A stretch of 63,636 nucleotides of DNA from a virus: positions 1 to 63,636 of the IMG/VR virus record IMGVR_UViG_3300050821_010780; one strand, given 5' to 3'. Below the pieces are notes generated by a model. It worked only from the letters and a program-made list of their open reading frames with translations. It made no database searches and was not told where the DNA came from. Below, one piece after another: positions 2,318 through 62,427 of this stretch. The translations under genes and the position numbers were made by a program. Each line of letters starts with the position of its first letter. Positions within the stretch are counted from its first letter, which is position 1.

Positions 2318-2330
2318 ATGCATAATTATC
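2318..2330 (-). promoter_or_regulatory. Putative late promoter motif (degenerate copy)
   Basis: Plus-strand ATGC-ATA-ATTATC, lying 9 nt beyond the ATG of the coiled-coil gene (2309) and overlapping the stop codon of the upstream glycosyltransferase. It matches the recurrent ATGC-N3-A(A/T)TAT(G) element of this window. Confidence 0.35.
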
Positions 2331-3600: not shown

Positions 3601-4533
3601 TCATAAAAGTTCATTCATTTTTTTTACCAGCTCGGCAAAATCCCCTACATAAATGTCGTTATATGTGCAAGCGTAAAATGCGTCTATTAGCTTTTGCTTC
3701 GTTATTTCGAAGTATGAAATCGATGCATTATGCATCAATTTATCGTGATGATGTATGGTTAAACAAGGTGTTTTACACATATTCGATAGGATTGTTCCGT
3801 GATATCTTTGGGTAATTATATTGGTATATGAACTGAATAATTTGGTGAGAGATGCAATATCTTTTTCGCAGTCAGTAATATACTTGGAACTTCTATGCCT
3901 CATCTTATTGATGATCTCCGCAGATGCAAAATTATCATTCAACTCATTGTCTCTACACATACCGAAAAGATTTATGCTGTATCTATCATCAATAAGTATA
4001 TCCAAAAATTGCGCAAACTCAATCTTGAACTTCTCCCAAAATACGTGTTCCCAATGAGATGTAAAATATTGAGGAACAACTGATACGTTAGGTAATATCA
4101 ATATCGATTTACTATGTCTATCTGATTGAATAACACAATCCGATAAAGAATATACCAAATCAGGAATGACTATTGTATTGGTATTCAGTGAGTAAAATAC
4201 TTCCTTCTTGATGACCGATCTAATAGCTACAAGCTTTGCTGCTTTAATAAGTTCAAGATGAAATGGATGAATATCTGTTTCAGATCCAACCCCAATATAG
4301 AAACTTGGCATCAATTTTATTGCGTTGATTGCATCATCTGAAATCAAAGGCTTTGTATCAAGAAAAGAGCCACCACCAAAAAAAAGAGCATCAACACCAA
4401 GAAGATGTTGACGCTCTATATGATCGGTGAATACGAAATGTATGTGCGGAAACAGCTTATGGAGTGCGTCTATAAAAAGCTGGTCTCCTATATTGTTCTT
4501 ATAATAAAATCCATATACTAAAACTTTTTTCAT
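3601..4533 (-). CDS. Polysaccharide pyruvyl transferase-like protein (310 aa)
   Basis: The protein begins MKKVLVYGFYYKNNIGDQLF, with the N-x-GD motif near the N-terminus, then LFFGGGSFLDTKP, FYIGVGSETD and TQRYHGTILSNMCKTPCL. These are the hallmarks of the polysaccharide pyruvyl transferase family (PF04230), including the conserved R-(Y)-HG near the C-terminus. I start it at 4533, not 24 nt upstream, because that ATG overlaps the previous stop as ATGA, a translational-coupling arrangement. It and the following glycosyltransferase probably form a small sugar-modification unit. Some family members act as glycosyltransferase-like enzymes, so the substrate is open. Confidence 0.8.
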   Translation of the reverse strand: MKKVLVYGFYYKNNIGDQLFIDALHKLFPHIHFVFTDHIERQHLLGVDALFFGGGSFLDTKPLISDDAINAIKLMPSFYIGVGSETDIHPFHLELIKAAKLVAIRSVIKKEVFYSLNTNTIVIPDLVYSLSDCVIQSDRHSKSILILPNVSVVPQYFTSHWEHVFWEKFKIEFAQFLDILIDDRYSINLFGMCRDNELNDNFASAEIINKMRHRSSKYITDCEKDIASLTKLFSSYTNIITQRYHGTILSNMCKTPCLTIHHHDKLMHNASISYFEITKQKLIDAFYACTYNDIYVGDFAELVKKMNELL

Positions 4534-5435: not shown

Positions 5436-5693
5436 TCATTCCACGAAATCAACGGCCCAAGATACTGTTCGCACTCCGGATACATTCCACTTGATTTTGA
5501 GCATAAATGAACCATTACCAAAATTGACTTGCCAATCCAAAGTATCTTTATGACTATCACAAGGAGTAGTTCCCCCATCATCCTTGAATTCAACAAGAAT
5601 GGTAACGGGTTTTCCAAATAGCGTAATATCAACTTCATCCTGACCCGAAACATCAAGTGTTCCGGACATAATATTGTCGAGTGGTGTTGCCAT
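5436..5693 (-). CDS. Small beta-rich virion protein (85 aa)
   Basis: A compact 85-residue ORF with a clear ribosome-binding site (GGGAGAAT before the ATG) and a well-formed promoter motif about 45 nt upstream (5737-5749). The sequence alternates charged and hydrophobic residues (VDITLFGKPVTILVEFKDDG, then LKIKWNVSGVRTVSWAVDF), predicting a small beta-sandwich or barrel. Size and position downstream of the capsid region suggest a capsid decoration or head-completion protein. A longer overlapping minus-strand frame (5372-5656) has no start signal and is rejected. Confidence 0.65.
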   Translation of the reverse strand: MATPLDNIMSGTLDVSGQDEVDITLFGKPVTILVEFKDDGGTTPCDSHKDTLDWQVNFGNGSFMLKIKWNVSGVRTVSWAVDFVE

Positions 5694-5736: not shown

Positions 5737-5749
5737 ATGCGGGAATATG
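5737..5749 (-). promoter_or_regulatory. Putative late promoter ATATT-N3-GCAT
   Basis: Plus-strand ATGC-GGG-AATATG, followed by a second ATGC-GTTG-AATATG 10 nt on. On the minus strand this is CATATT-CCC-GCAT about 45 nt before the ATG of the 85-aa gene, which has its own Shine-Dalgarno. It lies just inside the gap after the methyltransferase fusion gene. Confidence 0.5.
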
Positions 5750-7903: not shown

Positions 7904-7937
7904 AAAAAAGAGCCCGTGAAGAAAATTCCTCACGGGC
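7904..7937 (-). terminator. Rho-independent terminator after the major capsid gene
   Basis: An 8-bp perfect stem (plus strand GCCCGTGA at 7912-7919 pairs with TCACGGGC at 7930-7937), a 10-nt loop, and on the minus strand a TTTTTT run at 7909-7904. It lies 35 nt beyond the capsid stop codon. Confidence 0.9.
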
Positions 7938-7971
7938 CTTAAGATAAGCGAAAACAGGCTAAATTAGGCTA

Positions 7972-8988
7972 TTAGACGCCTACGAGAACGGATTTATTGC
8001 CCTTCGCACAGCCGCGAGGGTTAACTATTCCGATTCCGATAATTTCATTTACGACCCATCCGAGCTTTAATTGTTTCGGTTCGTCAGCAGGAAGCACCTC
8101 TATATCCTGACGAATTGGCATAACGCCCAAAAATTCGGGATCTGCTCCTGCGTATACCGTTCCTGGCGGGACAATCTTGCTTACGAGAATGTCTGCACCC
8201 CAGAGATGGGCATATAGACCAGTTTGGAGGATTTCACGTTGTGTCACGGGATCAACTTCGCCACCGCCAACGCCTTGTCCGCCACCAGAGCCCCAGCCAA
8301 GAATATCATTGAACTCATTTATGTTCATAAAGAACTTGGTCGTTACGAGGTCCCAACGATCAACCTGAACTTTGAGCTCACGAAGATCGCGCTTAAGCAT
8401 ACCTGCATCTGCAATATCTTGAACTGTGTTTTCAACAGACGCTGCGGCATCGAGAGCTGCGAAAATGTTCGCATCTTCTTGTGCCATTATTTCTTGACGT
8501 GCTTTCTGAACCGCACGGTCAATTACGTTAAACCGACGACGCTTGACTTCTGCGATACGAACGGTGGGATTCGAATAGATTTCGAACTCGGGAACAACGA
8601 CACGATCACCGAATACGCGTGACTCGGGACCTGTACCGTTTGACGAGATTACGACTGCGGCGACATCGATATCGCGGTCATACGTCGGTAAAGCACCTTG
8701 CGGTAATGGATCTACAACAAGTGCCCTACGAGCGAGACCATGATAGTCCAAATTTCGGCGAATTGGATTTGCCATTGCTTGTGCAAGCGCAAGCTTTCCT
8801 TCCTGAGTGTTAATTGCTCTGCTTATTAGACTGTCGCGAGCATCTTCTGACATAGAAGGCGATGTTAGCCCAACATTTGAGGGTTGGCCTTCTTGTAGAA
8901 GTGATGCGTATTTTGCGATCTGCGTGAGTGCATCACGAAGATCCGAGGCATTCATTTGCCCCTGGTTATTGAACATTGAATTACTCAT
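7972..8988 (-). CDS. Major capsid protein, HK97-like (338 aa)
   Basis: The protein fits a short HK97-fold major capsid protein. A helical N-terminal arm is followed by PIRRNLDYHGLARRALVVDP, then an E-loop-like region with VVVPEFEIYSNPTVRIAEVK, a spine-helix-like stretch (RRRFNVIDRAVQKARQEIM), and a C-terminal beta region (GADILVSKIVPPGTVYAGAD; LKLGWVVNEIIGIGIVNPRG). Codon use and GC are higher than in the neighbours, as expected for a highly expressed gene. It has an AAAGGAA ribosome-binding site, a promoter motif about 70 nt upstream and a strong terminator. No N-terminal propeptide cleavage site can be assigned from sequence alone. Confidence 0.85.
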   Translation of the reverse strand: MSNSMFNNQGQMNASDLRDALTQIAKYASLLQEGQPSNVGLTSPSMSEDARDSLISRAINTQEGKLALAQAMANPIRRNLDYHGLARRALVVDPLPQGALPTYDRDIDVAAVVISSNGTGPESRVFGDRVVVPEFEIYSNPTVRIAEVKRRRFNVIDRAVQKARQEIMAQEDANIFAALDAAASVENTVQDIADAGMLKRDLRELKVQVDRWDLVTTKFFMNINEFNDILGWGSGGGQGVGGGEVDPVTQREILQTGLYAHLWGADILVSKIVPPGTVYAGADPEFLGVMPIRQDIEVLPADEPKQLKLGWVVNEIIGIGIVNPRGCAKGNKSVLVGV

Positions 8989-9058: not shown

Positions 9059-9071
9059 ATGCCAAAATATG
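9059..9071 (-). promoter_or_regulatory. Putative late promoter for the capsid gene
   Basis: Plus-strand ATGC-CAA-AATATG, which on the minus strand is CATATT-TTG-GCAT. It lies about 70 nt before the capsid ATG and gives a leader that contains the gene's AAAGGAA ribosome-binding site. The same 13-mer occurs at 36289-36301. Confidence 0.55.
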
Positions 9072-9109: not shown

Positions 9110-10120
9110 TCAGTCGTAAAACCTGAATAATCCAGGATCGCTGATAACAATTTCACGAGTTGAAGGGCGTTGCATAAGGTTATTTCCGTGCAAATCATTC
9201 CAATACACCCCCGCATCTCGCAAATTGCCCAAGAACTGCATGACCGATCTAGACTCCGGAATGGTCTCGTAGTATTGTGTTTGAGCGGGCGCTAGATCAG
9301 CTATTTCTGAACGCTTTGGAAAAGTTGTCTGCAGCAATAATGCTAATCTATCATGCATACCATTAACAAACGCTCTAACATCATTGTAATCAAGATCCGG
9401 TATATTCATCATTACGAAATGAACGGTTCTTCTTAACATTGTTCCAATGAACGTTACAAGCTCATTAATTTTAAGCGGTCTTTCTCCCACCCCAACAATG
9501 AATTGCTCAACAAGGTGATATAGTCTTGTTTTATGAGGTTGCAATCGTTCTTTTTGCTCCTTTGAGAGATCTGACCAAGAAAGATGTAGCAACTGATTTA
9601 TAGCTTCTTTATTCCGAAGCACATTGAACGTTTTTCTTGGTGTTTGAAAGACGTGCGATTGTTTTCCAGCTCCCTGGAATAGCATCATTTTTAAGTGAGG
9701 ATCAAGGGGTTCAAGATATTCAACCTCAATCATATAGAGACCGTTATCTTGATCATATTCCACATCATACACTTTAAGAAGATGTTTGCTATCTTGCAGT
9801 TTGGATCGAAGAGCTTCGAGACGAAGGACCGCATTAACATCGTCGTGAGAAAGAGTGAATTTGAGAACGTGGTTCTTGTAGAGAAAGGTTTTGTTGAACA
9901 CGCCCGCCCCAAGAAAACGAAGAAGACGAGGATCTCGGTTGAACTTGCGGGACGTTGAATGGATCATCTGATCGGAGATGTCTTTTGAATGAAGAGTGGA
10001 TGGAGCTTTAGTATCAATATCTTCTGATGGTGTGAAGTCTCGTTGCGGCAGTTTCTGTGGTTTAATTCGCACAGTTTGAGCTTGAATTTGGAAGATGGAA
10101 GCGAATTTAAAAAGAAGCAT
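9110..10120 (-). CDS. Protein kinase-like fold protein (336 aa)
   Basis: The order of kinase motifs is clear. A Gly-rich loop FLGAGVFNKTFL is at about residues 69-80, the Lys of VLKFT at 87, a helix C-like Glu in RLEALR (E102), a hinge-like VEYLEPL near 133, a catalytic loop WNDLHGNNL (D309, N313/N314) and a DPG (328-330) in place of DFG. All residues needed for ATP and metal binding seem present, so it could be active. About 60 N-terminal residues and an unusually long helical insert (about 150-290) separate it from ordinary Ser/Thr kinases. It is closest in style to HxDLHxxN small-molecule or protein kinases. The gene lies between the capsid and minor structural genes, with a promoter motif 12 nt upstream. 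Confidence 0.75.
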   Translation of the reverse strand: MLLFKFASIFQIQAQTVRIKPQKLPQRDFTPSEDIDTKAPSTLHSKDISDQMIHSTSRKFNRDPRLLRFLGAGVFNKTFLYKNHVLKFTLSHDDVNAVLRLEALRSKLQDSKHLLKVYDVEYDQDNGLYMIEVEYLEPLDPHLKMMLFQGAGKQSHVFQTPRKTFNVLRNKEAINQLLHLSWSDLSKEQKERLQPHKTRLYHLVEQFIVGVGERPLKINELVTFIGTMLRRTVHFVMMNIPDLDYNDVRAFVNGMHDRLALLLQTTFPKRSEIADLAPAQTQYYETIPESRSVMQFLGNLRDAGVYWNDLHGNNLMQRPSTREIVISDPGLFRFYD

Positions 10121-10131
10121 TGGATGATGAA

Positions 10132-10144
10132 ATGCGGGAATATT
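10132..10144 (-). promoter_or_regulatory. Putative late promoter before the kinase-like gene
   Basis: Plus-strand ATGC-GGG-AATATT. The minus strand reads AATATT-CCC-GCAT, then 11 nt to the ATG at 10120, implying a very short leader without a Shine-Dalgarno. Confidence 0.5.
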
Positions 10145-10150: not shown

Positions 10151-10654
10151 TTATTGAAGGCCAGACATCTCTTTTATTCTGCGTACGATTGCATCTCGGT
10201 TCCAATCTGGTGGTGGCTCTCTAACTATCAATGCAGTACTAGAATGAAATACTTTTCTACTGCTAACGGTATCAAGATAATACGACGAGGTATCATAATC
10301 CAAATACTGTCCTCCAAATACAATCTCGTATAATGGAGCAGGAGATGCCAAATACGCTGAATTATGTGCCCAATCTCCCGGAAGTATATCCTCAACTGCT
10401 TTTTTATGCGTTCCACCATAATAGCGTTTGATTATCCAATTCATCATCTCTTCACTGGACCTTTTTATCTCTCCCTCTTCAAGAAGCATATCCATTAACA
10501 CCTGGGAAGCTTCATCATTTTCAAGCGCTTGTTTGGCCAAATCTTTGCGCAATGCTTTTCGCTGCAAAAACTTCTTCCATTGTTCTTGATCAGCATCGTT
10601 CATTGGATCATTGGCCAATCGTTGAAATATAGCAGCTTTGAAGAAAAGAGACAT
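10151..10654 (-). CDS. Unknown late protein (167 aa)
   Basis: The N-terminal half is helical and charged (FKAAIFQRLANDPMNDADQE through a long Lys/Glu/Leu segment). The C-terminal half is aromatic and Tyr-rich (GGQYLDYDTSSYYLDTVSSR), ending IVRRIKEMSGLQ. No known motif was recognised. It sits between the kinase-like gene and a terminator-flanked structural gene, and has the promoter motif (10665-10677) 10 nt upstream. A head-associated role is possible but unproven. Confidence 0.6.
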   Translation of the reverse strand: MSLFFKAAIFQRLANDPMNDADQEQWKKFLQRKALRKDLAKQALENDEASQVLMDMLLEEGEIKRSSEEMMNWIIKRYYGGTHKKAVEDILPGDWAHNSAYLASPAPLYEIVFGGQYLDYDTSSYYLDTVSSRKVFHSSTALIVREPPPDWNRDAIVRRIKEMSGLQ

Positions 10655-10664: not shown

Positions 10665-10677
10665 ATGCAAGAATATG
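10665..10677 (-). promoter_or_regulatory. Putative late promoter ATATT-N3-GCAT
   Basis: Plus-strand ATGC-AAG-AATATG; minus-strand CATATT-CTT-GCAT about 10 nt before the ATG at 10654. It lies just downstream of the terminator at 10687-10714, so it would restart transcription after termination. Confidence 0.5.
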
Positions 10678-10740: not shown

Positions 10741-11469
10741 TTAGATGGTTGTGCTATTGGCATACGCCCCATAGAACCAAAATACAACCTGGAAGAACTT
10801 CTGTTGCTGCAAGCTTGAAACCGAGCTTGATGGGCTATTAAGCGCAGCTACGAGATTTTGCGGGGTCGTGACGAGCGAACCGTTCGTCTCGAACTCTGCA
10901 AGTCTACCAATTACGATGCCACCAGTATTTTTACCCGTTGTGGTTGTTAACAACCCAGCCGATGTGTAATAGAGTGGCATGCCAACTGTTAGACCAGTCG
11001 TTGTTGGAGTAAGATTGGTTGTATCTACTGCGTCAAGTGTGACACCGTAAAGACCTTGCTTATCCCAAAGTGTAATCTTACCAGAACCTGTTGCTGTATG
11101 AGGTCCAAGTAAGTTAGCTGATGCAACAGTTGAGTTTGGACCATAAGCGGTTGTTCCAACTCCACCACCAACTACTGTTCCGAAAAGCGTTCCGTAGCCT
11201 TTGAGACCATCATCAGCGAGGAAAAATGGAGGAGCATTTGTGCCCATACCAGCCCAATCTTTGCTGACCGCTGGATCAACAAAACCAAGACCGCCTTCAT
11301 TTAGATAACCATCATTTGGAACATCTGCTGCACCAGCACCAGCTGCTTGTGATTGAAGTTCTGCGCGCCATGTGCAAATTTCTCCGCCCTTAAAAGTAAG
11401 GGTTTCTGTTCCATAACCGTCAAACTGCCCGAGCGGTTGAGTGCCCGGTTGGTGTAAAATTAAAGCCAT
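10741..11469 (-). CDS. Abundant virion structural/decoration protein candidate (242 aa)
   Basis: The protein is rich in Gly, Ala, Thr and Ser and poor in Cys and Lys. It starts MALILHQPGTQPLGQFDGYG and contains a Gly-rich middle (GTVVGGGVGTTAYGPNS) and a Thr-rich stretch (DTTNLTPTTTGLTVG), ending in an aromatic segment FFQVVFWFYGAYANS. Composition suggests an all-beta capsid-surface or decoration protein. It has its own promoter motif (11549-11561), a good ribosome-binding site (AAAGGATAA) and its own terminator, the same arrangement as the capsid gene, consistent with high expression. The family is not recognised. Confidence 0.7.
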   Translation of the reverse strand: MALILHQPGTQPLGQFDGYGTETLTFKGGEICTWRAELQSQAAGAGAADVPNDGYLNEGGLGFVDPAVSKDWAGMGTNAPPFFLADDGLKGYGTLFGTVVGGGVGTTAYGPNSTVASANLLGPHTATGSGKITLWDKQGLYGVTLDAVDTTNLTPTTTGLTVGMPLYYTSAGLLTTTTGKNTGGIVIGRLAEFETNGSLVTTPQNLVAALNSPSSSVSSLQQQKFFQVVFWFYGAYANSTTI

Positions 11470-11548: not shown

Positions 11549-11561
11549 ATGTCCAAATATG
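11549..11561 (-). promoter_or_regulatory. Putative late promoter (variant)
   Basis: Plus-strand ATGT-CCA-AATATG about 80 nt before the ATG at 11469. One mismatch from the ATGC consensus. The 120-nt gap 11470-11589 holds this motif, a long 5' leader and the Shine-Dalgarno; nothing else was seen in it. Confidence 0.4.
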
Positions 11562-15114: not shown

Positions 15115-16037
15115 TACTTCTTCCCTCCACCAAGAGTATTCGCTCTAACCGTTATTTCGTTTCTAATCTTGTCGATCGCTTTCATTACACTGGGACCTTC
15201 CCATGCATTTTGCCCATCAATCTGTATATTATTGGTTTTGAGATACGATACCAAATTTTGCATCGATGAGATATCATTGAAAGTTATGTAAGGAAAGCTC
15301 ATGTCGGGAATTGGTGCATTTGATGAAACGAGAACGGAGGCCGCTTTATTTTCTTCTGGTGTTAATGTTGGTGTCTTATCTTCTGGAAGAACGCTAAACG
15401 ACTTTCCAAGTGTATGCGGTGTATATTGGTGAGAAGCATCAATCAATGTGTCAATGAACTCATTCATTGATTGTCTCATCTTCGCAAGCAATGGTATCAA
15501 TCTGTGCGCTCGGAGAATTTTATCTCGCTCCGATAATCCATTGGTATCTTCAAAAGACTTTGGAACCAATCTTTGCATTGCAGAGAAATCCCCGCTTGAA
15601 AAGGGGACCTTTGCACCAATTTTCTTTGCCAATGAGGATAAGGTATATGCAAACGGTATAACTACACGAAGCTTATCATCGGTAATCTTGTCCCAATTAC
15701 CATCAACTTTGCCTTTATTAATTTCAGCACGCAATACTTCATAGTGTGGAACATCAAAACCTTGCTTGGTGGCGTCCTTGCGGCCCATCGTTGAATACTT
15801 ATTGAACAAGAAACTTGCAAACTTGTTCTCTTGAATGGTTGCAAATCCTTTCCAAATCATTGATGAAAGAGCAACTAATTGTTTCTGCATCTCCATAATC
15901 GATTTGCTTGCCTTATCTTTTACGGTGGCGGGAGCTGATTGTCCTCCGGAAGATGGATGATAGGATCGTCCTGGTGATGGCGCAGAAGGTGGAGCAGCTG
16001 CTCTCGGTAAATCAACATTAGAATGCTTGAACATCAT
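15114..16037 (-). CDS. Virion-associated protein with disordered N-terminus (307 aa)
   Basis: The first 45 residues are Ala/Pro/Ser/Gly-rich and probably disordered (PRAAAPPSAPSPGRSYHPSS). The rest is mainly helical, with patches such as MEMQKQLVALSSMIWKGFAT and RAHRLIPLLAKMRQSMNEFI. The C-terminus ends in TLGGGKK. An AAAGGA ribosome-binding site precedes tandem ATGs at 16037 and 16034. The first overlaps the upstream TAA by one base. No homologous family is recognised; co-transcription with three other unknown late proteins suggests parts of one virion substructure. Confidence 0.62.
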   Translation of the reverse strand: MMFKHSNVDLPRAAAPPSAPSPGRSYHPSSGGQSAPATVKDKASKSIMEMQKQLVALSSMIWKGFATIQENKFASFLFNKYSTMGRKDATKQGFDVPHYEVLRAEINKGKVDGNWDKITDDKLRVVIPFAYTLSSLAKKIGAKVPFSSGDFSAMQRLVPKSFEDTNGLSERDKILRAHRLIPLLAKMRQSMNEFIDTLIDASHQYTPHTLGKSFSVLPEDKTPTLTPEENKAASVLVSSNAPIPDMSFPYITFNDISSMQNLVSYLKTNNIQIDGQNAWEGPSVMKAIDKIRNEITVRANTLGGGKK

Positions 16038-17416
16038 TATCCTTTAACTTGTTGAGCCCTTATCGCAGCGTTAAGTATTGTGTCGTGGTCTTTTTTCAGC
16101 ATTGCTCTTAATGCCGCTATTGTGGTGACACTTTCACCCTTTGAAAATGTTGCTGATTGCCATTCAGGTAACTTCATAACTTCTGATACTGGCATAGTTT
16201 TCTTCAATGCCACCAGCTTGTTAGCTATGGCATTGTATTCATTTCTCTGTCGTTCTGCTACCATTAATATTTGCACAGTATTTGGTGTTGATTGTACCTT
16301 ATCCAAGATTTCGGTTTGTATCTTGGATGCTGCTTCTTTAAAAATACCACCAATCCAGTCAGATGGTAAGTGATTGATGTGATAGCTTGCTGCTTCTTGA
16401 TTTCCTCTAACAAGTTCTTCTGCTGACCACATAGCATTCAAAAGATACTGGAACCATACGATATAAGTATTGCGTGTCTTTGTATTTTCATCAGCATCAG
16501 AATTGAATTCTACTTTGCCTATCAGTATGATGATCTTGTCAAGAAGAAACTTTATAGCTTCCAATGTAGTAATGCTTGTATTCTTCTCAACAGCTTCTTT
16601 TGCTGATTTGAACTCTTCTTTGAAGATGTCCAACAGATCGCGAAGAGGCTTGAATGAATGACCAATCATTCCTATCGCAGCTGCATATCTTGTGTTCAAA
16701 ATATTGGGATGAAGCTGTTGAAGTAATATGTCGCAGTTCTTTATAGCTCTATCCGCAACTTGTTTTGCTTTATTACGAGCGTCAGTAATTTTGTCTGCCC
16801 CTGTTGCTGGAGTTTCTTCAATCTCTTGCGCCAATACCACCTTACATTGCTGCACATAAGATGCAAGTTTTCCGGTTGGTGTCTTATGCATCACATCAAC
16901 GATCTTCTTGTGTTGCGAAACGATTGTCTCAACATCTGCTAATGCATCAGACGCTTCACCCATCGTCTTATCGCCATCTGGATGAGCACGATCCACCAAA
17001 TCTTCACCATCTTCATCGTGAGTGCGATACATATGCAGGTTCGTGGCTTGTTTTTCAAGTGCATTTGCTTGTTTATAATCGACAAACCGCTGTCCGAGAT
17101 TTGAAGCGTATTTTTCCTGTCCATTTGCGTTCAAAAGAGAGCAAAGAGCAAGAATGTTTTCATCGAATGAACGCTTATACTTTGGTGTTAATACCTCCAC
17201 CGCATCAAGGACCTGACCCCAAAATCTATGCTTCTCCTTATCTGGTTTGCTTCCGAAAGCGTCGTGCTCCATTCTGAAATACGATGCCATTTCGTGCGCT
17301 ATTTGAGGTGAAGAATAGCGATCCATCAGATTACGTGCGATATCTTCCGGTGATTTTTTGTGCGGAAGAGAAGTCATTAAGTCAAGATGCTTAAGATCAG
17401 AGAATGTATAGACCAT
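16037..17416 (-). CDS. Large helical virion-associated protein (459 aa)
   Basis: An almost entirely helical protein, with an N-terminal HKKSPEDIARNLMDRYSSPQ segment and then charged helices containing EKYASNLGQRF and EKQATNLHMY. These K-x-A-(S/T) patches resemble those in other late genes. The C-terminal half has ATGADKITDARNKAKQVADR and a long helix ending AAIRAQQVKG. It is the first gene of a coupled group of four (17416 to 12869), with a promoter motif (17454-17466) and a GGAG ribosome-binding site. No catalytic residues or known domain recognised. A tape-measure role is unlikely at this length. Confidence 0.62.
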   Translation of the reverse strand: MVYTFSDLKHLDLMTSLPHKKSPEDIARNLMDRYSSPQIAHEMASYFRMEHDAFGSKPDKEKHRFWGQVLDAVEVLTPKYKRSFDENILALCSLLNANGQEKYASNLGQRFVDYKQANALEKQATNLHMYRTHDEDGEDLVDRAHPDGDKTMGEASDALADVETIVSQHKKIVDVMHKTPTGKLASYVQQCKVVLAQEIEETPATGADKITDARNKAKQVADRAIKNCDILLQQLHPNILNTRYAAAIGMIGHSFKPLRDLLDIFKEEFKSAKEAVEKNTSITTLEAIKFLLDKIIILIGKVEFNSDADENTKTRNTYIVWFQYLLNAMWSAEELVRGNQEAASYHINHLPSDWIGGIFKEAASKIQTEILDKVQSTPNTVQILMVAERQRNEYNAIANKLVALKKTMPVSEVMKLPEWQSATFSKGESVTTIAALRAMLKKDHDTILNAAIRAQQVKG

Positions 17417-17453: not shown

Positions 17454-17466
17454 ATGCTGGAATATG
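17454..17466 (-). promoter_or_regulatory. Putative late promoter ATATT-N3-GCAT
   Basis: Plus-strand ATGC-TGG-AATATG; minus-strand CATATT-CCA-GCAT, about 38 nt before the ATG at 17416. It heads the coupled four-gene group that runs to 12869. Confidence 0.55.
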
Positions 17467-24073: not shown

Positions 24074-24709
24074 TTATCCATTTACGCCTTTCAGTTTTTC
24101 ATTTCTCTCATTTACAAGTTCAACTGAAAATGGTAGCTTTTGCTCAACTTTTTCTTCAAGACTTTCTGACACGGCATCTGTCCAATTTTGCGCTAATATA
24201 TGCGTTATAAGATGATCCTTTATTCTATCCTCAATTATTTGCTCCAATTGGGCAATTTCCTTCTTGATGTTTTCAACTGCCTTAACAATTCCCTGCGTAA
24301 ATTCTTTTGCCTCTAAATTGGAGAATAATTCAATGCATCTATTAACTTGCTTTTCAATATCTCCAATTGAAAGAACGAATGACTTATTGAGTTTAATGAC
24401 TTGTGTATCTGTAGAAAATGGTTGAAGTGCAACGAAACATTTGAAAGCAATGCGCTTCAATCTATTAAAGTTATCAGCCATCTTATCTCGATATCGCCTT
24501 AATGCAGCTCGAACTTTAAAGATCTGTTCTGGTGCTATATTAGGATTATCTTTGAATGGAGTATAGATCAAATCAAGATGAGAATTGCACTCCTTCATTA
24601 CCTTCAATAGGTAATCAAAACGCAGAAGTGCCTTATTTGCCCTGTCTTTATCTTCATCAGGAACTTCATATGATAGTTGAACGGCATATATTTTACGTGC
24701 GTTTGCCAT
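24074..24709 (-). CDS. Helical late protein, unknown function (211 aa)
   Basis: An almost wholly helical, charged protein: YEVPDEDKDRANKALLRFDY, RAALRRYRDKMADNFNRLKR, then a coiled-coil-like region (IVKAVENIKKEIAQLEQIIE) and a charged end. No catalytic motif was recognised. The start ATG at 24709 has a short leader and a promoter motif (24717-24729) that overlaps the stop of the upstream phosphatase gene. A head or tail assembly role is inferred from position only. Confidence 0.6.
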   Translation of the reverse strand: MANARKIYAVQLSYEVPDEDKDRANKALLRFDYLLKVMKECNSHLDLIYTPFKDNPNIAPEQIFKVRAALRRYRDKMADNFNRLKRIAFKCFVALQPFSTDTQVIKLNKSFVLSIGDIEKQVNRCIELFSNLEAKEFTQGIVKAVENIKKEIAQLEQIIEDRIKDHLITHILAQNWTDAVSESLEEKVEQKLPFSVELVNERNEKLKGVNG

Positions 24710-24716: not shown

Positions 24717-24729
24717 ATGCCTAAATATA
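24717..24729 (-). promoter_or_regulatory. Putative late promoter ATATT-N3-GCAT
   Basis: Plus-strand ATGC-CTA-AATATA; the minus strand reads TATATT-TAG-GCAT 7 nt before the ATG at 24709, with no Shine-Dalgarno between. Confidence 0.5.
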
Positions 24730-27645: not shown

Positions 27646-28094
27646 TACGAGACCTTAAAATTCCGTTGAATTGTGCGAAGGGATAGTATACCAGTTTTGA
27701 GCGAAAGACGACAAAGTATTTTGAGCGTAGCTTTTCCAATGATTGACGGATCTATCTTCGAAAAGTCTATGTAGGAATAGACTTCAAGCTGACGATCATT
27801 TGTGGCATCTTCCGCTGGATGATTATATAGCACGATACCTCTTACAACGGATCGTCTAACTTCATCGATGATCTTTTGCTCAAAATTTGGCGGAATTATA
27901 TCTGGTTCCATATTGAGATCATACAATCTCTCACTAACGATACCGGTGATGTGATGAAATGATCCCACCGTGACCCTAATGTTATTTGGCGTGATTGCTT
28001 GAAGAAATGGAAAACTGGAAAACGGTCTATCAACGCGACCTTCTTGTATGTTGTGCTGAGGTGGCCCTCGTCTCTCGCGTTGAGGAGGGCTCAA
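27645..28094 (-). CDS. Baseplate/tail-like protein, TTG start (149 aa)
   Basis: A basic, Pro-rich N-terminus (SPPQRERRGPPQHNIQEGRV) precedes a beta/helix domain (NNIRVTVGSFHHITGIVSER, IDEVRRSVVRGIVLYNHPAE) and a compact end LSLRTIQRNFKVS. The only sensible start is TTG at 28094, which overlaps the upstream stop as TTGA; the next in-frame Met is about 60 residues on. It sits between the transglycosylase gene and a long helical gene. A tail or baseplate role is inferred. Confidence 0.55.
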   Translation of the reverse strand: MSPPQRERRGPPQHNIQEGRVDRPFSSFPFLQAITPNNIRVTVGSFHHITGIVSERLYDLNMEPDIIPPNFEQKIIDEVRRSVVRGIVLYNHPAEDATNDRQLEVYSYIDFSKIDPSIIGKATLKILCRLSLKTGILSLRTIQRNFKVS

Positions 28095-29437
28095 ACTAAA
28101 GGGGGCGTTTCTTCCTTTTCCTCTTCTTCCTTTTGCTCTTGCGGTTTACCTTTTAAGAAGTCAAACACACCGGCAGTTTTATATTCTTCAACAATACCCT
28201 CTGCTATTGCAAGAAGCTTCAAACTCATTTCGGGATCTTGATCTTCCATCGCTTCCGAATGATCAAGAATTTCAAGCACCATTAGCTCTGGATTTTCTTC
28301 CTCCGCAAAAATCTCCAAGCGCTCCAAGAACTCTTGATTTGATGCTCCTTTTTGCTTTTCAAGATCAAGTGGCATATTTTCATCCGGTGTTTGTTCGACC
28401 ATTGTTTTTGGCAATAGGTTTGGTAGATTTTGAGGTTGATACATTAACGTCTCCGGTTTGTTGCCCATCATGCCGGGTTCTTTAAGAGGACCGGTTGAAA
28501 CTTGTTGTTGAAGCTGTTCTCCTAATGGTTTTGCTTGCTCTGTTAATCTTTGTTGCATCTCCGCTTGTTGTTGCGCTTCCATCTGTTGTTTAGCAGCATC
28601 TTCTTGTCTTTGCTTGATTTCAAGCTCTTTCTTTTTCTCCGCAACTAACTTCTCATGTTCCTTTTTCAACGGAACAATGCGTCCCTCATAATACTTTACG
28701 AACTCCTTATGGTATCCTGCAAATTTCTCAACAAAACCTTTTGACAAAGCGGTGTACTGATCAAGACTTCTTTTAGCAAGAGCACTTGCCAATTTTTTGA
28801 ACGTGGAAAGCAAGAACGCAACAAATCTCTCAGATCGCTCAATCATTATCAAGGTATCTCTTTTGAGATCCTTCAAGAATGCAACGGAGAAATTTCGCTC
28901 CAATACCTTCATAGCTTTTGCACGTTCATTCGTTAGATTATGAACTACATCAGAAAGAGGATCTGTAATTTTGAACCACCAATCAGATAGACCAGCTTGT
29001 TTTTTGAGCGATGCACTGACTTCAATATTGTCATTAGCTTCTTGAAGATCTTCAAGCTGAAGCTCGCGTGTCGGATTGTATCCGAATAACTGCTCCTTCT
29101 GATCATCATCAAATTGATCAAGTAGCACTTTGAAGTTTTTCAAGTCAACAGTATTACGGAAACGCTCAAGCTCCGCTGCTATGTAGCGTGCGCGTTCGTG
29201 AAATGATGACAATGCAGCGGCACAAGAAAGATAATCACGTCTACGATAGTATTGCTTTGCTGAACGAAGAAGATTGCGAACATTCTCCGCATAACCTCTA
29301 ACCTTCTCATCAGCTTTGCGAAGATGCTCCATTGTCTTACCGAATTCTGGATTAAGCCTCTCAATTAAGCGACCAGACAAATTTGCCTTCTCATGCAAAT
29401 GGTTCCAAAATCCGCGTTCTTGTGCCAATCGTTCCAT
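28091..29437 (-). CDS. Long helical/coiled-coil virion protein (448 aa)
   Basis: MERLAQERGFWNHLHEKANL begins at the ATG at 29437 after an AGGAG ribosome-binding site; the TTG one codon earlier is not needed. The first 270 residues are helical. A Gln/Lys/Glu coiled coil follows (EKKKELEIKQRQEDAAKQQM; MEAQQQAEMQQRLTEQAKPL), then a Pro-rich linker and an acidic C-terminus (QEQKEEEEKEETPPLV). Gene order (next to the portal) suggests a scaffold, head-completion or internal protein. The promoter motif at 29459-29471 lies in the gap after the portal stop. Confidence 0.62.
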   Translation of the reverse strand: MERLAQERGFWNHLHEKANLSGRLIERLNPEFGKTMEHLRKADEKVRGYAENVRNLLRSAKQYYRRRDYLSCAAALSSFHERARYIAAELERFRNTVDLKNFKVLLDQFDDDQKEQLFGYNPTRELQLEDLQEANDNIEVSASLKKQAGLSDWWFKITDPLSDVVHNLTNERAKAMKVLERNFSVAFLKDLKRDTLIMIERSERFVAFLLSTFKKLASALAKRSLDQYTALSKGFVEKFAGYHKEFVKYYEGRIVPLKKEHEKLVAEKKKELEIKQRQEDAAKQQMEAQQQAEMQQRLTEQAKPLGEQLQQQVSTGPLKEPGMMGNKPETLMYQPQNLPNLLPKTMVEQTPDENMPLDLEKQKGASNQEFLERLEIFAEEENPELMVLEILDHSEAMEDQDPEMSLKLLAIAEGIVEEYKTAGVFDFLKGKPQEQKEEEEKEETPPLV

Positions 29438-29458: not shown

Positions 29459-29471
29459 ATGCAGAAATATT
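29459..29471 (-). promoter_or_regulatory. Putative late promoter ATATT-N3-GCAT
   Basis: Plus-strand ATGC-AGA-AATATT; minus-strand AATATT-TCT-GCAT 21 nt before the ATG at 29437, followed by an AGGAG ribosome-binding site. Confidence 0.5.
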
Positions 29472-31303: not shown

Positions 31304-31313
31304 CTATATATCA
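31304..31313 (-). promoter_or_regulatory. TGATATATAG element before the portal gene
   Basis: Minus-strand TGATATATAG between the TerL stop codon (which supplies its TGA) and the portal ribosome-binding site. Core shared with 18194, 24047, 5420 and 42093. Confidence 0.4.
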
Positions 31314-33140
31314 ACGTAATTTGGGGCAGTATCCTAAAATTGCCGGAATGCCTTCTTTTTTCTCCGTTTTCATCAAAGAAGGGTGCTTAATCTTAAACCC
31401 GTTCGATACATAGAACTTCATAGCGATGTAGGCATTTAAAAGCGCACTGAAACCATCAGTATGTCCTGACTTTACATAATGAGGCTGAACATCGCCAGTT
31501 CTTGATATTGAAGGTTTGATCTCAAAATTCACGCAATGCTGCAATAACCACGAAATCTGCTCAAATGAACCCAATGGAAAACGAACATTGCCTTTCTTCA
31601 TTTGCTCAAACATATCAGCGATCCAAAAATCTTTCTCGAACATTATGGTCTTTGGAAATACTTGATCTGCGAATTTGATCTTGTCATTTACACGAGGAAG
31701 AGCATTTGATGAAAGCATCTTCATTCCGTATTCTGTTTGCAGTATCTCGGAAAGATCTCTCGTATAACCCAAGTCAATAACACCAAGATTAACACTGTAT
31801 TTGCGCATAATCTCATCAATGATACCCTTTTTGGAAGTAAGATCATTTCGTTTGAATTTGGTAGCGAATTCAATGGACATTCGTTGAGGACCGGTCATCG
31901 CAATAACAACCGCTGTTGAGTATGATTGACCTTTGTTTCTAACTTTGTCGCTATCAACAAGGTTTTCAATGTCAGCTTTCTCACCAATATCTATACCGAG
32001 GAAAACGAGAAGATCCTCTGCGGGTGATATTGATGCACGGAATTTTCTTTCTGGATCCCCGCAAAGCTCGCGAATTTGATCGGGTGTAATGATTGCGCTT
32101 TCACCGTGATAAAATTCACCAAGGACTTCATTTTGATATGCGCGCTCTGTATTGATTGCAGAAATGCCAGGTTTTTCAGAGAGAAGCTTTTCTTTGGTGA
32201 TATGTGGCATATAAAGCTGATTGATATGAAACCCCATGAATTTAGCGTCCGACTTATCTTTTGTCGATATCCATTTTCCACGTTCAGCAGCATCCCTTTT
32301 ATCTTGTTCAAAACCACAATGTGTGCAGCGAACTATAAATCCGTAAAGCCAAATATCTTCCCAGTCATTAGAATTTGGGGTGTAAAGCGGAAAATGCTTT
32401 TTGCACTTCTCACAACCAAGGTAATAGTACTGTTGTGTTGAGTTGTTCCATATATCGTAGAACATTGAACCCCTTTGTAATGGTGTTCCAAACATTACCT
32501 GAACTCCACCATTTCCATATTGAGCCTGCATCATCGTCTTCAACGCATTACTCATCGCTGTTGAACTCATTTGTTGCACTTCATCGAAGAAGATAATATC
32601 TACGGTTTTACCACGAAGTCTTGTGGCATCTATACCAACACTCTCAATCCATATATGGTTGTTTCCCTTGAATTGTTTGAACTGTTGCGATTCACTGCCC
32701 TCTTCATCGAGAAGAAGCTGCATACACGACTTTTGCTTGCCTTTAATTGGTTGTTCATCAGGAACACTTGATCCTGATATCATTGCTGCAAATTTTGTTT
32801 TGCTGTATGAGAACGCAAGATCAAGAAACGGAAACGCATGTATGATACGAATTGGAGGACGACCATTGAAACCAAAAATACCCGAACCAAGAAAATACAT
32901 CTCCATAGCAGATGCGCAAGTTGTCATACCAGTTTGACGACTTTTACATACTGCAATTGGAAGGCTGTCTTTTTCCAATGCCTTAACGCCAATACATCGA
33001 TAAATCTCTGCATATGGCTTATATCCATTCCCATGAATACGGAATGGCTTTCCATCGAGCGTAAGATGTTTCTCGACCCAATAAACGGGATCGAGTGCAA
33101 GCAACTTGTCCTTAATCGTATCTAATAGCGAAGCTTCCAT
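31311..33140 (-). CDS. terL: Terminase large subunit, GpA-like (609 aa)
   Basis: Walker A-like CKSRQTGMTT (about residues 65-74) and Walker B DIIFFDEVQQM (about 181-191) define the packaging ATPase. A GpA-type zinc ribbon follows (CEKC near 243, CTHC near 272). The C-terminal nuclease has the RNase H-like opening LLVFLGIDIGEKADIE (D384), with LGVIDLGYTRD further on. A GETP/coupling-like LGEFYHGES segment is also present. TerL cuts and pumps genome DNA into the prohead. The portal gene is immediately downstream. The start ATG at 33140 has no Shine-Dalgarno but a promoter motif (33150-33162) ends 9 nt upstream, hinting at a near-leaderless message. Confidence 0.9.
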   Translation of the reverse strand: MEASLLDTIKDKLLALDPVYWVEKHLTLDGKPFRIHGNGYKPYAEIYRCIGVKALEKDSLPIAVCKSRQTGMTTCASAMEMYFLGSGIFGFNGRPPIRIIHAFPFLDLAFSYSKTKFAAMISGSSVPDEQPIKGKQKSCMQLLLDEEGSESQQFKQFKGNNHIWIESVGIDATRLRGKTVDIIFFDEVQQMSSTAMSNALKTMMQAQYGNGGVQVMFGTPLQRGSMFYDIWNNSTQQYYYLGCEKCKKHFPLYTPNSNDWEDIWLYGFIVRCTHCGFEQDKRDAAERGKWISTKDKSDAKFMGFHINQLYMPHITKEKLLSEKPGISAINTERAYQNEVLGEFYHGESAIITPDQIRELCGDPERKFRASISPAEDLLVFLGIDIGEKADIENLVDSDKVRNKGQSYSTAVVIAMTGPQRMSIEFATKFKRNDLTSKKGIIDEIMRKYSVNLGVIDLGYTRDLSEILQTEYGMKMLSSNALPRVNDKIKFADQVFPKTIMFEKDFWIADMFEQMKKGNVRFPLGSFEQISWLLQHCVNFEIKPSISRTGDVQPHYVKSGHTDGFSALLNAYIAMKFYVSNGFKIKHPSLMKTEKKEGIPAILGYCPKLR

Positions 33141-33149: not shown

Positions 33150-33162
33150 ATGCGAAAATATA
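33150..33162 (-). promoter_or_regulatory. Putative late promoter before TerL
   Basis: Plus-strand ATGC-GAA-AATATA; minus-strand TATATT-TTC-GCAT, 9 nt before the TerL ATG. Confidence 0.55.
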
Positions 33163-33848: not shown

Positions 33849-34457
33849 TTACATCCCTTGACGATTTGGATTGCACCCACCGAACGGATCATTGTCCTTT
33901 GCAAGGTTATCATCAACCTTTACATCTACCTTACCAAGCTGAAGATCTTCTTTCATTGCATATGGGGAATTCTGTCTCTTCTCCGTTATCTTATCGTTGA
34001 TATAGCGCTTTATATCTTCCGGAAGATCATTTGCTTCGGGAAGATTTTCCTTCACCGATTTCAGTTTTAGCAGGTCGTGTATTACCGCTTCAATAGATGT
34101 TCCTGGATGTGCATCAACATAGTTATCAATAAATGTTTTCAGCTCCGGGATCTTGGAAAAGACATCTTCCTTGGTATCTTGCGCTTGCTTAATCTGTTTG
34201 AGATATTCAGTAAGTCCGGTGCGTTGCTTAAAATTTTCAACAGCTTCCTGAACTGTCGAAAACTTACCTTTATTTCCCAGAATGCTATTGATCTGATCGT
34301 ATATAGAATTACTATCAGCTTTTGTTGTCGTAATGGCCTGTTGACTTTTTGCAAAGTCATTTAACCAATCTGGAATAATTTCAGAACGAGAAAATGAGCC
34401 ATTATCTCTCGATATAGTTGATAATGAACGTGCAGTAAATTTTTTGTCATTAGCCAT
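33849..34457 (-). CDS. Helical late protein, unknown function (202 aa)
   Basis: The start is set at the ATG at 34457 (MANDKKFTARSLSTISRDNG), since the longer frame runs through the divergent promoter region of the HNH gene. The protein is helical and charged, with GKFSTVQEAVENFKQRTGLT and PELKTFIDNYVDAHPGTSIE. It ends with a small Gly/Asn motif DPFGGCNPNRQGM. The late motif (34464-34476) ends 6 nt upstream of the ATG. No family recognised. Confidence 0.6.
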   Translation of the reverse strand: MANDKKFTARSLSTISRDNGSFSRSEIIPDWLNDFAKSQQAITTTKADSNSIYDQINSILGNKGKFSTVQEAVENFKQRTGLTEYLKQIKQAQDTKEDVFSKIPELKTFIDNYVDAHPGTSIEAVIHDLLKLKSVKENLPEANDLPEDIKRYINDKITEKRQNSPYAMKEDLQLGKVDVKVDDNLAKDNDPFGGCNPNRQGM

Positions 34458-34463: not shown

Positions 34464-34476
34464 ATGCAAGATTATT
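34464..34476 (-). promoter_or_regulatory. Putative late promoter in the divergent HNH/late-gene gap
   Basis: Plus-strand ATGC-AAG-ATTATT; minus-strand AATAAT-CTT-GCAT, 6 nt before the ATG at 34457. It sits back-to-back with a sigma70-like promoter on the other strand. Confidence 0.45.
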
Positions 34477-34487: not shown

Positions 34488-34515
34488 TTGACAATAGTAT
34501 CGCAGATGATATATT
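34488..34515 (+). promoter_or_regulatory. Sigma70-like promoter for the HNH endonuclease
   Basis: TTGACA at 34488-34493, a 16-nt spacer, then TATATT at 34510-34515. About 20 nt downstream is the HNH start, with AGGAAG (34523-34528) as the ribosome-binding site. Confidence 0.65.
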
Positions 34516-34535: not shown

Positions 34536-35399
34536 ATGAAATCTAAAGAATGCTCAAAATGCCATGTAGAAAAACCAGAAACAGTTGAATTTTTCAGAAT
34601 GAGAAAACGCAAAGATAAAGAAGGATTATTCTTTTTGGCGTGTTGCAAAGACTGTGAAAAAAAGTATGATGAAGAATATAGGGAGAAAAATAAAGACGCA
34701 ATTAATGAACGTAAAAGAAAATCCTACCATAAAGATCCGAGTAAACACGCGATGAGTTCAAAAAAATGGCGCCAAAATAATCCAGATAAGGTTAGAAATC
34801 GTAATGTAAAATGGAGAAAGGATAATCCGAATTATGGTTTGCAATGGTTAAAAGATAATCCAGAAAAAGCAAACGCAAGTTCAAAAAAATGGAAGAAGAA
34901 TAATCCAGATATGGTTAATGAATATAGTGCCAAATGGAGAAGTGATAATCCGGATAAAGTAAGAGCAATGAGGCGGAGGGCCGAAAGAAAGAGAAGAGCA
35001 ACGGATCCTGCATTTAGACTTCGTAGAAATGCATCAAATTCAGCATATAAAATGCTCAAATCTCGTGGATTAGACAAACAAGGAAAATCTATGCTTGATC
35101 ACGTAGATTGGACACCTGAACAATTTGCTCAACACATAGAAAATCTTTGGTCTCATCCCGATAATCTTGATGAGAATGGTAATATATGGATGAATTGGGA
35201 TAATCATGGAGTGTATAATCCGAATATAAAAACTTGGCACGTGGATCACATAAAGCCACATTCAGATTTCTATTACCTATCACCAGAAGATCCGACATTT
35301 AAGGAGTGCTGGTCTCTATCAAATTTGCGACCGTTAGAAGCAAAACAAAACATATTGGATGGTATCAAAAGAACTCGTCATATCACCAATCAAGAATAG
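34536..35399 (+). CDS. HNH homing endonuclease with tandem basic repeats (287 aa)
   Basis: This is the only plus-strand gene. The start ATG at 34536 has AGGAAG upstream and a consensus-like promoter. Residues 1-45 hold a zinc-ribbon-like region (CSKCHVEKPE, CCKDCEKKY). Several tandem repeats with the core KW(R/K)xxNP(D/E)(K/M) follow (about residues 70-150), likely DNA contacts. The C-terminal HNH domain reads IKTWHVDHIKPHSDF and CWSLSNLRPLEAKQNI. The gene ends 10 nt inside the 3' end of the convergent 35390 gene. A mobile free-standing gene that stays under host-type transcription, so it may be expressed early. Confidence 0.88.
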   Translation: MKSKECSKCHVEKPETVEFFRMRKRKDKEGLFFLACCKDCEKKYDEEYREKNKDAINERKRKSYHKDPSKHAMSSKKWRQNNPDKVRNRNVKWRKDNPNYGLQWLKDNPEKANASSKKWKKNNPDMVNEYSAKWRSDNPDKVRAMRRRAERKRRATDPAFRLRRNASNSAYKMLKSRGLDKQGKSMLDHVDWTPEQFAQHIENLWSHPDNLDENGNIWMNWDNHGVYNPNIKTWHVDHIKPHSDFYYLSPEDPTFKECWSLSNLRPLEAKQNILDGIKRTRHITNQE

Positions 35400-36271
35400 T
35401 ATTGCGAAGCATAATCGCCCTTACCATCACTTACGTCCCATTTCTCTTTACTTTCAGGTGGGAATAAACGATCACGACGAACAAAATATCCCATATCAGA
35501 AAGAAGTTGTGTTAGCTCTATTTGCTCTCTTTTGGAAAGATCATACTCTTTTACTTGATGCGCATACATATTTTCTATGTCGTGGCCTCCTGAAACCATT
35601 CCGTTGATCATTGTTCGTGCAATAGTTGAGATTAGAAGAGGAACGGTTACAATTATACTACCTACGTGAGTTTGCTTGGCTTCTTTTACTATGCCAGCCT
35701 TCTCATCAGCGCTATGCTTATATTGCTTCATCAAGTTTTCTTTTGCTTTCTCCAATCTTGGAAGTGCATCATATATCTCTCTACGAAGAGCTTCAAATGC
35801 TGCAATATCTATCTTACCGAGATAATCACCAGAGATCATCTTTGACATCTCATTATCAACTCGTTTGAGATATGAAAGAACTCTCTCAATCCCGAGTATT
35901 TGTTTCCCATCGTGTCTTGGAATTTCTTGCAGTCTTGCTTTTGCCCATTCAATTGCGCCATCTGGTTTGACGGATTTTGTATCCCAAGGATCGGCAACTT
36001 CCAATGTCGATACATCGTTCTTATCTTTCTTTGTTGTCTTTTCTTCAACTTCAATATCACTATCAGTTGATACTTCGAGAGGAATTTCAGCATCCGATCC
36101 GGGAAGTGGTGCAAGCTTAAATACAACCTCCGTTTCTTTTGGTTCTTGATGAAGCTCAACCACATCTTCCATATCGGGTTTCTCTTCATATAGGATAACC
36201 TCATCATCCTTGCCAAGATCTTTGAGATCATTGATTTCCATCATATCCTGCGCTGATTTATATAGAGCCAT
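35390..36271 (-). CDS. Late protein with acidic N-terminus and hydrophobic segment (293 aa)
   Basis: The start is placed at the ATG at 36271 (MALYKSAQDMMEINDLKDLG), which follows a CGAGGA ribosome-binding site. An ATG 24 nt earlier lies inside the promoter motif and is rejected. K5-S6-A7-Q8 matches the K-x-A-Q motif of other late proteins. Residues 20-90 are acidic (EEKPDMEDVVELHQEPKETE). Helices and a moderately hydrophobic stretch follow (VGSIIVTVPLLISTIARTMI). Function not recognised. Confidence 0.6.
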   Translation of the reverse strand: MALYKSAQDMMEINDLKDLGKDDEVILYEEKPDMEDVVELHQEPKETEVVFKLAPLPGSDAEIPLEVSTDSDIEVEEKTTKKDKNDVSTLEVADPWDTKSVKPDGAIEWAKARLQEIPRHDGKQILGIERVLSYLKRVDNEMSKMISGDYLGKIDIAAFEALRREIYDALPRLEKAKENLMKQYKHSADEKAGIVKEAKQTHVGSIIVTVPLLISTIARTMINGMVSGGHDIENMYAHQVKEYDLSKREQIELTQLLSDMGYFVRRDRLFPPESKEKWDVSDGKGDYASQYYS

Positions 36272-36288: not shown

Positions 36289-36301
36289 ATGCCAAAATAT
36301 G
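36289..36301 (-). promoter_or_regulatory. Putative late promoter, identical to the capsid one
   Basis: Plus-strand ATGC-CAA-AATATG, the same 13 nt as at 9059-9071. It lies 17 nt before the ATG at 36271. Confidence 0.55.
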
Positions 36302-40207: not shown

Positions 40208-40220
40208 ATGCAGAATTATG
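40208..40220 (-). promoter_or_regulatory. Putative late promoter ATATT-like-N3-GCAT
   Basis: Plus-strand ATGC-AGA-ATTATG, 15 nt before the ATG at 40192, overlapping the stop of the upstream gene. Confidence 0.4.
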
Positions 40221-44838: not shown

Positions 44839-44851
44839 ATGCGATAATATT
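44839..44851 (-). promoter_or_regulatory. Putative late promoter ATATT-N3-GCAT
   Basis: Plus-strand ATGC-GAT-AATATT, 33 nt before the ATG at 44805 and downstream of the GIY-YIG stop at 44858. Confidence 0.45.
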
Positions 44852-45634: not shown

Positions 45635-46084
45635 TTATAACCAACTCTCGTTTCGTAGATCTGAAATTTGCTGTAATATCTCGTTGATACGTTTATCATC
45701 TTTAACTGCTCTCTTTATTTTCAATTTGATACCTCCGTATATTGTTTTGTGGTTATTATCGATAATTTGCGAACCTATGAGTGCCTTGCTGACACTCGAC
45801 TGATTAATACCTAATTGTTTTGCTGTTTCTTGCTGCGTATATCCACTAGCCAGCAACTCTACCACCTCTCTCTGTCTATCAGTTAAATTCTCACCTATAA
45901 CCCTCCAAAATTCCTTTCTTAATTGTTCTTCAAGATCGGCGATTTGTTCATTATATGCGTGAGGATTTAGTCTTTTGTATATACTATCATCATTACAAAA
46001 TCCTTCTAACATTTCAATAGGGAACGAAATCTCACAAAAAAGATGTTGTATAAGATCACTTCTGCATCGTTTTCTTTCAACCAT
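45635..46084 (-). CDS. Sigma region 4-like HTH protein, candidate late regulator (149 aa)
   Basis: MVERKRCRSDLIQHLFCEIS starts at 46084 after a strong GGAGG ribosome-binding site; a longer in-frame start lies in the terminator stem and is rejected. Residues 80-115 read LTDRQREVVELLASGYTQQE then TAKQLGINQSSVSKALIGSQ, the classic sigma-70 region 4/LuxR-type helix-turn-helix. The rest is helical. There is no region 2. The gene lies between the terminated replication operon and the late genes, the place expected for a middle or late transcription activator. It could pair with host RNA polymerase at the ATGC-type promoter, which is inference. Confidence 0.78.
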   Translation of the reverse strand: MVERKRCRSDLIQHLFCEISFPIEMLEGFCNDDSIYKRLNPHAYNEQIADLEEQLRKEFWRVIGENLTDRQREVVELLASGYTQQETAKQLGINQSSVSKALIGSQIIDNNHKTIYGGIKLKIKRAVKDDKRINEILQQISDLRNESWL

Positions 46085-50153: not shown

Positions 50154-50166
50154 ATGCGAGATTATG
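50154..50166 (-). promoter_or_regulatory. Putative promoter of the ssDNA-binding protein gene
   Basis: Plus-strand ATGC-GAG-ATTATG, overlapping the 3' arm of the inverted repeat 50161-50206. About 65 nt before the ATG at 50089; an AAGGAT ribosome-binding site follows. Confidence 0.45.
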
Positions 50167-61833: not shown

Positions 61834-61851
61834 CTTGATTAAAATGCCTTA

Positions 61852-62427
61852 TTATGTGGCTTTTAGTTTATTAGAAATACTTACTACTTCTGTATATAGA
61901 TCGTCTAATGATGAATTATTATAAATAACAACATCAAATAATGAATTTGGTATTTCATTTTGTTCTGTTTCTGATATATCATCTATTTTTTCGCTATTAT
62001 CACGAATTATTCTAATCATATAGAAATTATGCTTTCGTAAAAACTCAAATTCATTAATAAATCTACAATCACTGACAATATACACAATCTTATCTTTTGA
62101 TTGATTTAAATCATTTTCCAAATAATGCAACCATATATCCTTATTATATGCTCTTCCAAATTTACCTATATCAAGCAATGCCTGTCTGTATGTTAAATCG
62201 TAATATAGATCACATATAGTTTTACTACGATTTTCACTTGGACCATATAAATTATATTTATCTAATCCTTGAAACATAATTTCAACTATCTGTTTCATTG
62301 GGTTAGCTATTGCAGTAATTTTTGCACTATATTCATTAAGAGTTAATACTTTATAAAACATTGATGCAATAAGATCTTTTCCTGATCTTGCTTTGCCCGA
62401 TATAGCAATTCTATATTGTTTAGCCAT
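61852..62427 (-). CDS. Deoxynucleoside monophosphate kinase-like P-loop protein (191 aa)
   Basis: Walker A ISGKARSGKDLIASMFYKVL, a Lys/Arg-rich lid region, VYIVSDCRFINEFEFLRKHN (Walker B-like with the D-x-R) and MIRIIRDNSEK match the phage dNMP kinase family (T4 gp1-like). It should convert phage dNMPs to dNDPs for DNA synthesis. It overlaps the SbcC-like gene by 8 nt, which fits the pairing of nucleotide supply with recombination genes. Substrate specificity is not visible. Confidence 0.85.
   Translation of the reverse strand: MAKQYRIAISGKARSGKDLIASMFYKVLTLNEYSAKITAIANPMKQIVEIMFQGLDKYNLYGPSENRSKTICDLYYDLTYRQALLDIGKFGRAYNKDIWLHYLENDLNQSKDKIVYIVSDCRFINEFEFLRKHNFYMIRIIRDNSEKIDDISETEQNEIPNSLFDVVIYNNSSLDDLYTEVVSISNKLKAT

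Follow-up and report, generated by a model that had tools for sequence, protein, structure and literature searches.

The sequence motif ATAWT-N3-GYAT is well supported as a late promoter serving the genes for particle construction in a group of megaphages that is widespread and uncultured, and it probably acts through a sigma factor that the phages make themselves. We consider it likely that this megaphage late promoter is read by the host RNA polymerase core in company with a phage sigma factor of ~209 amino acids, and that transcription would begin 7 nt after GYAT. Promoter activity, the start site, late timing and the identity of the reader are what we infer from sequence comparison.

The DNA analysed here (the window) is a 63.6-kb fragment of a tailed phage. 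Its left side carries capsid, portal, terminase and protease genes, and its right side carries genes for a primase, a UvsX-like recombinase, a DNA polymerase, an exonuclease and SbcC. The closest cultured relative found by capsid was Bacillus phage G, with a major capsid protein (MCP) 54% identical to that of the window; no near DNA relative of the window was found among cultured phages. The window MCP is 78-86% identical to the capsid proteins of many uncultured contigs, several of them 360-450 kb in length. These MCP identities place the phage in a large, mostly unstudied megaphage group.

Rfam elements and tRNAs were not found in the window. The late block is interrupted by three homing-endonuclease-like genes (37646-38596, 40970-42091 and 44858-45619), two of the HNH type and one matching GIY-YIG homing endonuclease families. 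It also contains a polysaccharide pyruvyl transferase-like gene at 3601-4533 (Pfam PF04230, E 3e-11) and, at 34536-35399, a lone plus-strand gene with no assigned function. A sigma-70-like promoter, TTGACA-16-TATATT, lies just upstream of the latter gene at 34488-34515, and proteins ~30% identical to its product are found elsewhere in the relatives. Directly 3' of the MCP gene is a strong intrinsic terminator-like hairpin of 12 pairs with a T-rich tail (7911-7938, minus strand), and a similar hairpin precedes the motif copy at 10665.

Read along the minus-strand genes, plus-strand ATGC-N3-AWTAT is ATAWT-N3-GCAT. A previous sequence-only reading of the window had listed fifteen such sites. Fourteen of these are exact matches on the plus strand, and the remaining one at 11549 (ATGTCCAAATAT) has one mismatch (ATGT). 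The reported identity of the copies at 9059 and 36289 over 13 nt (ATGCCAAAATATG) was confirmed; the copy at 61844, which had been called degenerate, is actually an exact match. The earlier list had left out six sense copies that lie within genes (3076, 3924, 22097, 22112, 35797 and 61632), as well as two copies in antisense orientation, which start at 40371 and 62718. The window therefore holds 21 exact sense copies versus 2 antisense copies, with 1.7 +/- 1.3 expected from an order-2 Markov model. Genes were called with a simple codon-usage caller, a refined version of which was used for gap counts, and intergenic DNA so defined makes up 3.7% of the window. These 2,339 bp hold 13 of the 21 sense copies, and the 61,297 bp of coding DNA hold the other 8 (odds ratio 43, p 3e-14); no antisense copy falls in a gap. 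Equal density of the motif in coding DNA or on the other strand, the outcome named beforehand as speaking against a promoter, is excluded by these counts.

Exact copies are present in 11 of the 26 gaps of the left block (1-45,000) and in 2 of the 12 gaps of the right block. Alignment of the window sites revealed an extra preference for C/G just upstream and for T just downstream. The distance from the end of GCAT to the ATG is 6-17 nt at 9 of 16 window sites and 21-79 nt at the rest. The sites and their predicted leaders are shown in Table 1.

Table 1. Predicted late promoter elements of the window and the gene for a sigma-region-4-like protein
Position	Strand	Feature	Predicted start	Predicted leader (nt)	Gene	Remark
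2318..2329	-	late promoter element ATAATTATGCAT	2311	2	897-2309	
5737..5748	-	late promoter element	5730	37	5436-5693	
9059..9070	-	late promoter element	9052	64	7972-8988	MCP gene
10132..10143	-	late promoter element	10125	5	9110-10120	
10665..10676	-	late promoter element	10658	4	10151-10654	hairpin just upstream
11549..11560	-	one-mismatch element	11542	73	10741-11469	ACAT for GCAT
17454..17465	-	late promoter element		31	16037-17416	
24717..24728	-	late promoter element	24710	1	24074-24709	
29459..29470	-	late promoter element		15	28091-29437	
33150..33161	-	late promoter element		3	31311-33140	large terminase gene
34464..34475	-	late promoter element	34457	0	33849-34457	start = A of ATG; predicted fully leaderless
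36289..36300	-	late promoter element		11	35390-36271	
40208..40219	-	late promoter element		9	38600-40192	
44839..44850	-	late promoter element		27	44365-44805	
50154..50165	-	late promoter element		58	49403-50089	replication block
61844..61855	-	motif copy			61525-61833	replication block; 10 nt before gene
45635..46084	-	149-aa sigma-region-4-like helix-turn-helix protein				beside primase

The same motif was recovered de novo from related phages. Unseeded motif discovery (EM, random starts) on the gaps of about 150 related loci, taken from partly redundant contigs, returned aATAat-N3-gYATa as a signal second only to Shine-Dalgarno/ATG, and a seeded model placed it in about half of the relatives' gaps. 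Exact copies in these gaps numbered 82 sense versus 4 antisense. The motif matrix gave 478 gap sites, compared with a mean of 58 and a maximum of 88 for 20 column-permuted matrices; because the matrix was built partly from contigs that were later scanned, and because contigs overlap, the site counts are not independent, and the controls are affected equally.

Sites recur upstream of orthologous genes. They precede 48 of 50 orthologues of gene 35390-36271, 23 of 24 of gene 28091-29437, 41 of 48 of gene 10741-11469 (mostly at 67-86 nt) and all 9 of gene 16037-17416 (at 28-37 nt). Related MCP genes have a site in 31 of 57 cases, mostly at 60-83 nt, and TerL in 30 of 60, and two other orthologue sets are almost devoid of upstream sites (0 of 27 and 1 of 24). 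The near-complete relatives G001 and G004 were scanned in tiles, as was G008. Sites were present in 18 of 35 structural-block gaps of G001 versus 38 of 195 gaps elsewhere (p 2e-4), and in 23 of 41 versus 40 of 235 in G004 (p 4e-7), a 2.6-3.3-fold higher frequency in the structural-block gaps. The de novo recovery, the strand bias, the placement at orthologous genes and the concentration in structural blocks all support the proposal of the sequence-only reading that the motif is a late promoter. That some sites fall beyond the structural blocks, two of them in the replication block of the window, counts against it. The motif was not enriched in the first 50 kb of phage G, nor in Rctr197k or Tunturi_5 (about 41 kb each). 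To the extent that the literature could be searched, with most subscription papers outside reach, no description of ATAWT-N3-GYAT was found.

Strand bias is also shown by a second motif, GATATATA, frequently in the form TGATATATAG, which occurs on the minus strand of the window at 5432, 18203, 24056, 31312, 42105 and 49337. Its copies lie 6-33 nt before gene starts, among them those of two endonuclease-like genes. The relatives' gaps contain 66 sense versus 16 antisense copies. This motif, for which modelling gave no clean matrix, may represent another promoter class.

A start of transcription at GCAT itself is less likely than one 7 nt further downstream. The distance from the end of GYAT to the start codon in the relatives is 0-5 nt at 2 sites and 6-12 nt at 62, giving a hard floor at 6 nt, and peaks at 6, 9 and 28-37 nt. 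Among genes with the ATG 15 nt or more beyond GYAT, 71% have a purine at the seventh position past GYAT, and 57% show a step from pyrimidine to purine at this position, compared with 17-31% at neighbouring offsets. Together, the 6-nt floor and the pyrimidine-purine step of leadered genes point to a start at the seventh base. Numbered from such a start, ATAWT would span -18 to -14 and GYAT -10 to -7, with the two blocks about one turn apart. There was no sign of a -35 element: in 376 sites the region from -55 to -28 showed no information peak.

At several genes the message seems to start exactly at the start codon or a few nucleotides before it. In non-redundant gaps, all 50 genes located 6-12 nt downstream of GYAT start with ATG. 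A Shine-Dalgarno 4-mer was found in 6% of this class versus 64-86% of the longer-leader classes, a contrast inflated by the gene caller's preference for Shine-Dalgarno starts, although that preference also counts against finding a leaderless class. Another in-frame start, accompanied by a Shine-Dalgarno sequence, lies within 75 nt in only 3 of the 50 genes. Almost all genes of the 6-12 nt class lack a Shine-Dalgarno sequence, so that messages with no leader, or hardly any, are expected from them. The terminase gene starts exactly 6 nt after GYAT in 14 of the 30 relatives with a site, the commonest terminase spacing. The suggestion that the window messages may be almost leaderless thus holds for 7 of 16 sites, where the predicted leader is absent (gene 33849-34457) or 1-5 nt in length (six more genes); leaders of 9-73 nt are predicted for the others.

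The candidate reader of the element is a conserved ~209-amino acid sigma factor, one of which is encoded by each of the seven longest relatives (G001-G007, >350 kb); in G001 its gene lies near position 88968. Sigma70_r2 was detected in 11 of 11 family members and r4 in 7 of 11. Profile matches to the PDB were to sigma factors, and the structural model of the protein matched sigma structures (Foldseek). No match to this sigma factor is present within the window, and so the link between sigma factor and promoter rests on the longer relatives. The phage G genome also had no match to the sigma profile at E 0.001. A region 4 is present in the protein although no -35 element is seen, which counts against this candidate as reader.

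The window gene 45635-46084 belongs to a ~150-amino acid family that resembles sigma region 4 only and is conserved beside the primase gene across the group. Its product is a candidate late-transcription co-factor that might play a role like that of gp33. No match to the protein was found in cultured phages except for a weak one to a Brevibacillus phage sigma factor. The protein at first appeared nearly unique (1 relative), which reflected the limit of exact seeds, the family being conserved. Identification as a terminase small subunit was rejected on the grounds that the PHROG matches are weak and the sigma-family matches stronger and more general.

A late promoter with a different reader, be it a phage-encoded polymerase that escaped recognition (single-subunit or like that of phiKZ) or host RNA polymerase with a host sigma factor and a phage activator, is unlikely. 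Short single-block promoters without a -35 element are also typical of phage RNA polymerases (PMC7598289), and the absence of the 209-amino acid sigma gene from the window would be in keeping with such a reader. However, the beta' domain PF00623 was found in none of 20 genomes and the beta domain PF00562 in none of 9, with positive controls in both searches, and a phage multisubunit RNA polymerase was consequently rejected as the reader of the motif. In the search for a T7-type polymerase (PF00940) the controls were silent too, and so its absence is not proven. Further arguments against another reader are that the 209-amino acid sigma factor is conserved, at one per near-complete genome, and that sigma-70-like sites in window positions 1-40000 are no commoner than in shuffled sequence. 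A sigma-70-type promoter (TTGACA-N17-TATAAT) was rejected for the latter reason and for the lack of a -35 element.

The motif could alternatively be an RNA-level element of the 5' leader, a ribosome recruitment or processing signal with no promoter function. Such an element would be expected to occur, as the motif does, in the sense direction only, in gaps and often just before starts lacking a Shine-Dalgarno sequence. Nevertheless, this explanation is very improbable, given that distances to the start codon range from 6 to >80 nt in separate classes (6-12, 15-50 and 67-80 nt), that the Shine-Dalgarno sequence is mostly kept in leadered genes, that an initiation-like pyrimidine-purine step occurs at a fixed 7 nt, and that the window has no Rfam match. 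Although the AT-richness of the motif and the likeness of GCAT to start contexts would suit a compositional origin, the chance that the pattern arises merely from AT-rich gaps and ATG codons is negligible, the Markov, antisense, reversed and column-permuted controls all being far lower.

According to the preferred late-promoter reading, ATAWT at -18 to -14 and GYAT at -10 to -7, with no -35 element, would be recognised by an RNA polymerase holoenzyme in which the host core carries the phage-encoded ~209-amino acid sigma factor, with its regions 2 and 4. The sigma-4-like protein would perhaps assist. An ATG at the predicted start would yield a leaderless mRNA, and an ATG further downstream would yield a leader, usually with a Shine-Dalgarno sequence. 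A more specific scheme, in which one phage sigma factor and a sigma-4-like co-factor use a bipartite -18/-10 element throughout the megaphages and systematically give leaderless mRNAs for selected genes (e.g. that of terminase), is possible but on balance doubtful. If the bipartite reading is true, the halves of the element are one helical turn apart and the architecture is distinct from those of T4, phiEco32 and phiKZ.

This megaphage group is widespread in metagenomes and has few cultured relatives. With a start position predicted and a candidate sigma factor identified, the late programme of the group can be tested in vitro without the host. The motif is also a tool for annotating late genes and correcting gene starts, and it adds a clear example in which promoter spacing would determine that late phage messages are leaderless.

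Among known systems, the middle and late promoters of phiEco32 have the sequence tAATGTAtA with a start 6-8 bp downstream, and are used by host RNA polymerase with the gp36 sigma factor (PMC8948821). Similarities to the megaphage element are a single AT-rich element without a -35, a phage sigma factor (here a candidate) working with host RNA polymerase, and a predicted start spacing that fits the 6-8 bp of phiEco32. Both AAT and GTATA of the phiEco32 element are contained within the relatives' consensus ATAAT-N3-GTATA. Nevertheless, unlike in the contiguous tAATGTAtA, a 3-nt spacer splits AAT from GYATA here, and the element is thus not of the phiEco32 type. It also extends to -18, the 209-amino acid sigma factor has a region 4 whereas gp36 has no region 4 homology, and many genes are predicted to be leaderless, unlike those of phiEco32.

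T4 late promoters, which are used with gp55, gp33 and gp45, have TATAAATA at -13 to -6 (PMC1524935), and T4 gp55 works with gp33, which is described as a sigma-4 mimic (PMC2988020). The T4 and megaphage systems have in common an element in the -10 region only, no -35, late structural genes as targets and a sigma-4-like protein, and host RNA polymerase is proposed here too. As the sequence-only reading had noted, the motif is not the T4 late box, the consensus ATAWT-N3-GYAT being different in sequence and spanning -18 to -7. Unlike in the T4 system, a single polypeptide, the candidate sigma factor, contains both region 2 and region 4, and no T4-like gp55 was identified in this group. By analogy with T4, the presence of a sigma factor and a sigma-4-like protein makes a gp55/gp33-like division of labour possible.

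The late promoters of AR9 (AACA-N6-TA/G, PMC5312081) and phiKZ (TATG, PMC7598289) are likewise short motifs of very large phages at a fixed distance, here a predicted one, from the start. However, they are read by phage multisubunit RNA polymerases, none of which was found in this group, and the AR9 leaders of 26-491 nt are the opposite of the leaderless class described above. Two sigma factors, gp3 and gp69, are encoded by phage G itself. Our best reading is that the transcription logic of the megaphage late genes is closest to that of phiEco32 and T4, and that the predicted promoter matches neither in sequence nor in its two-part span.
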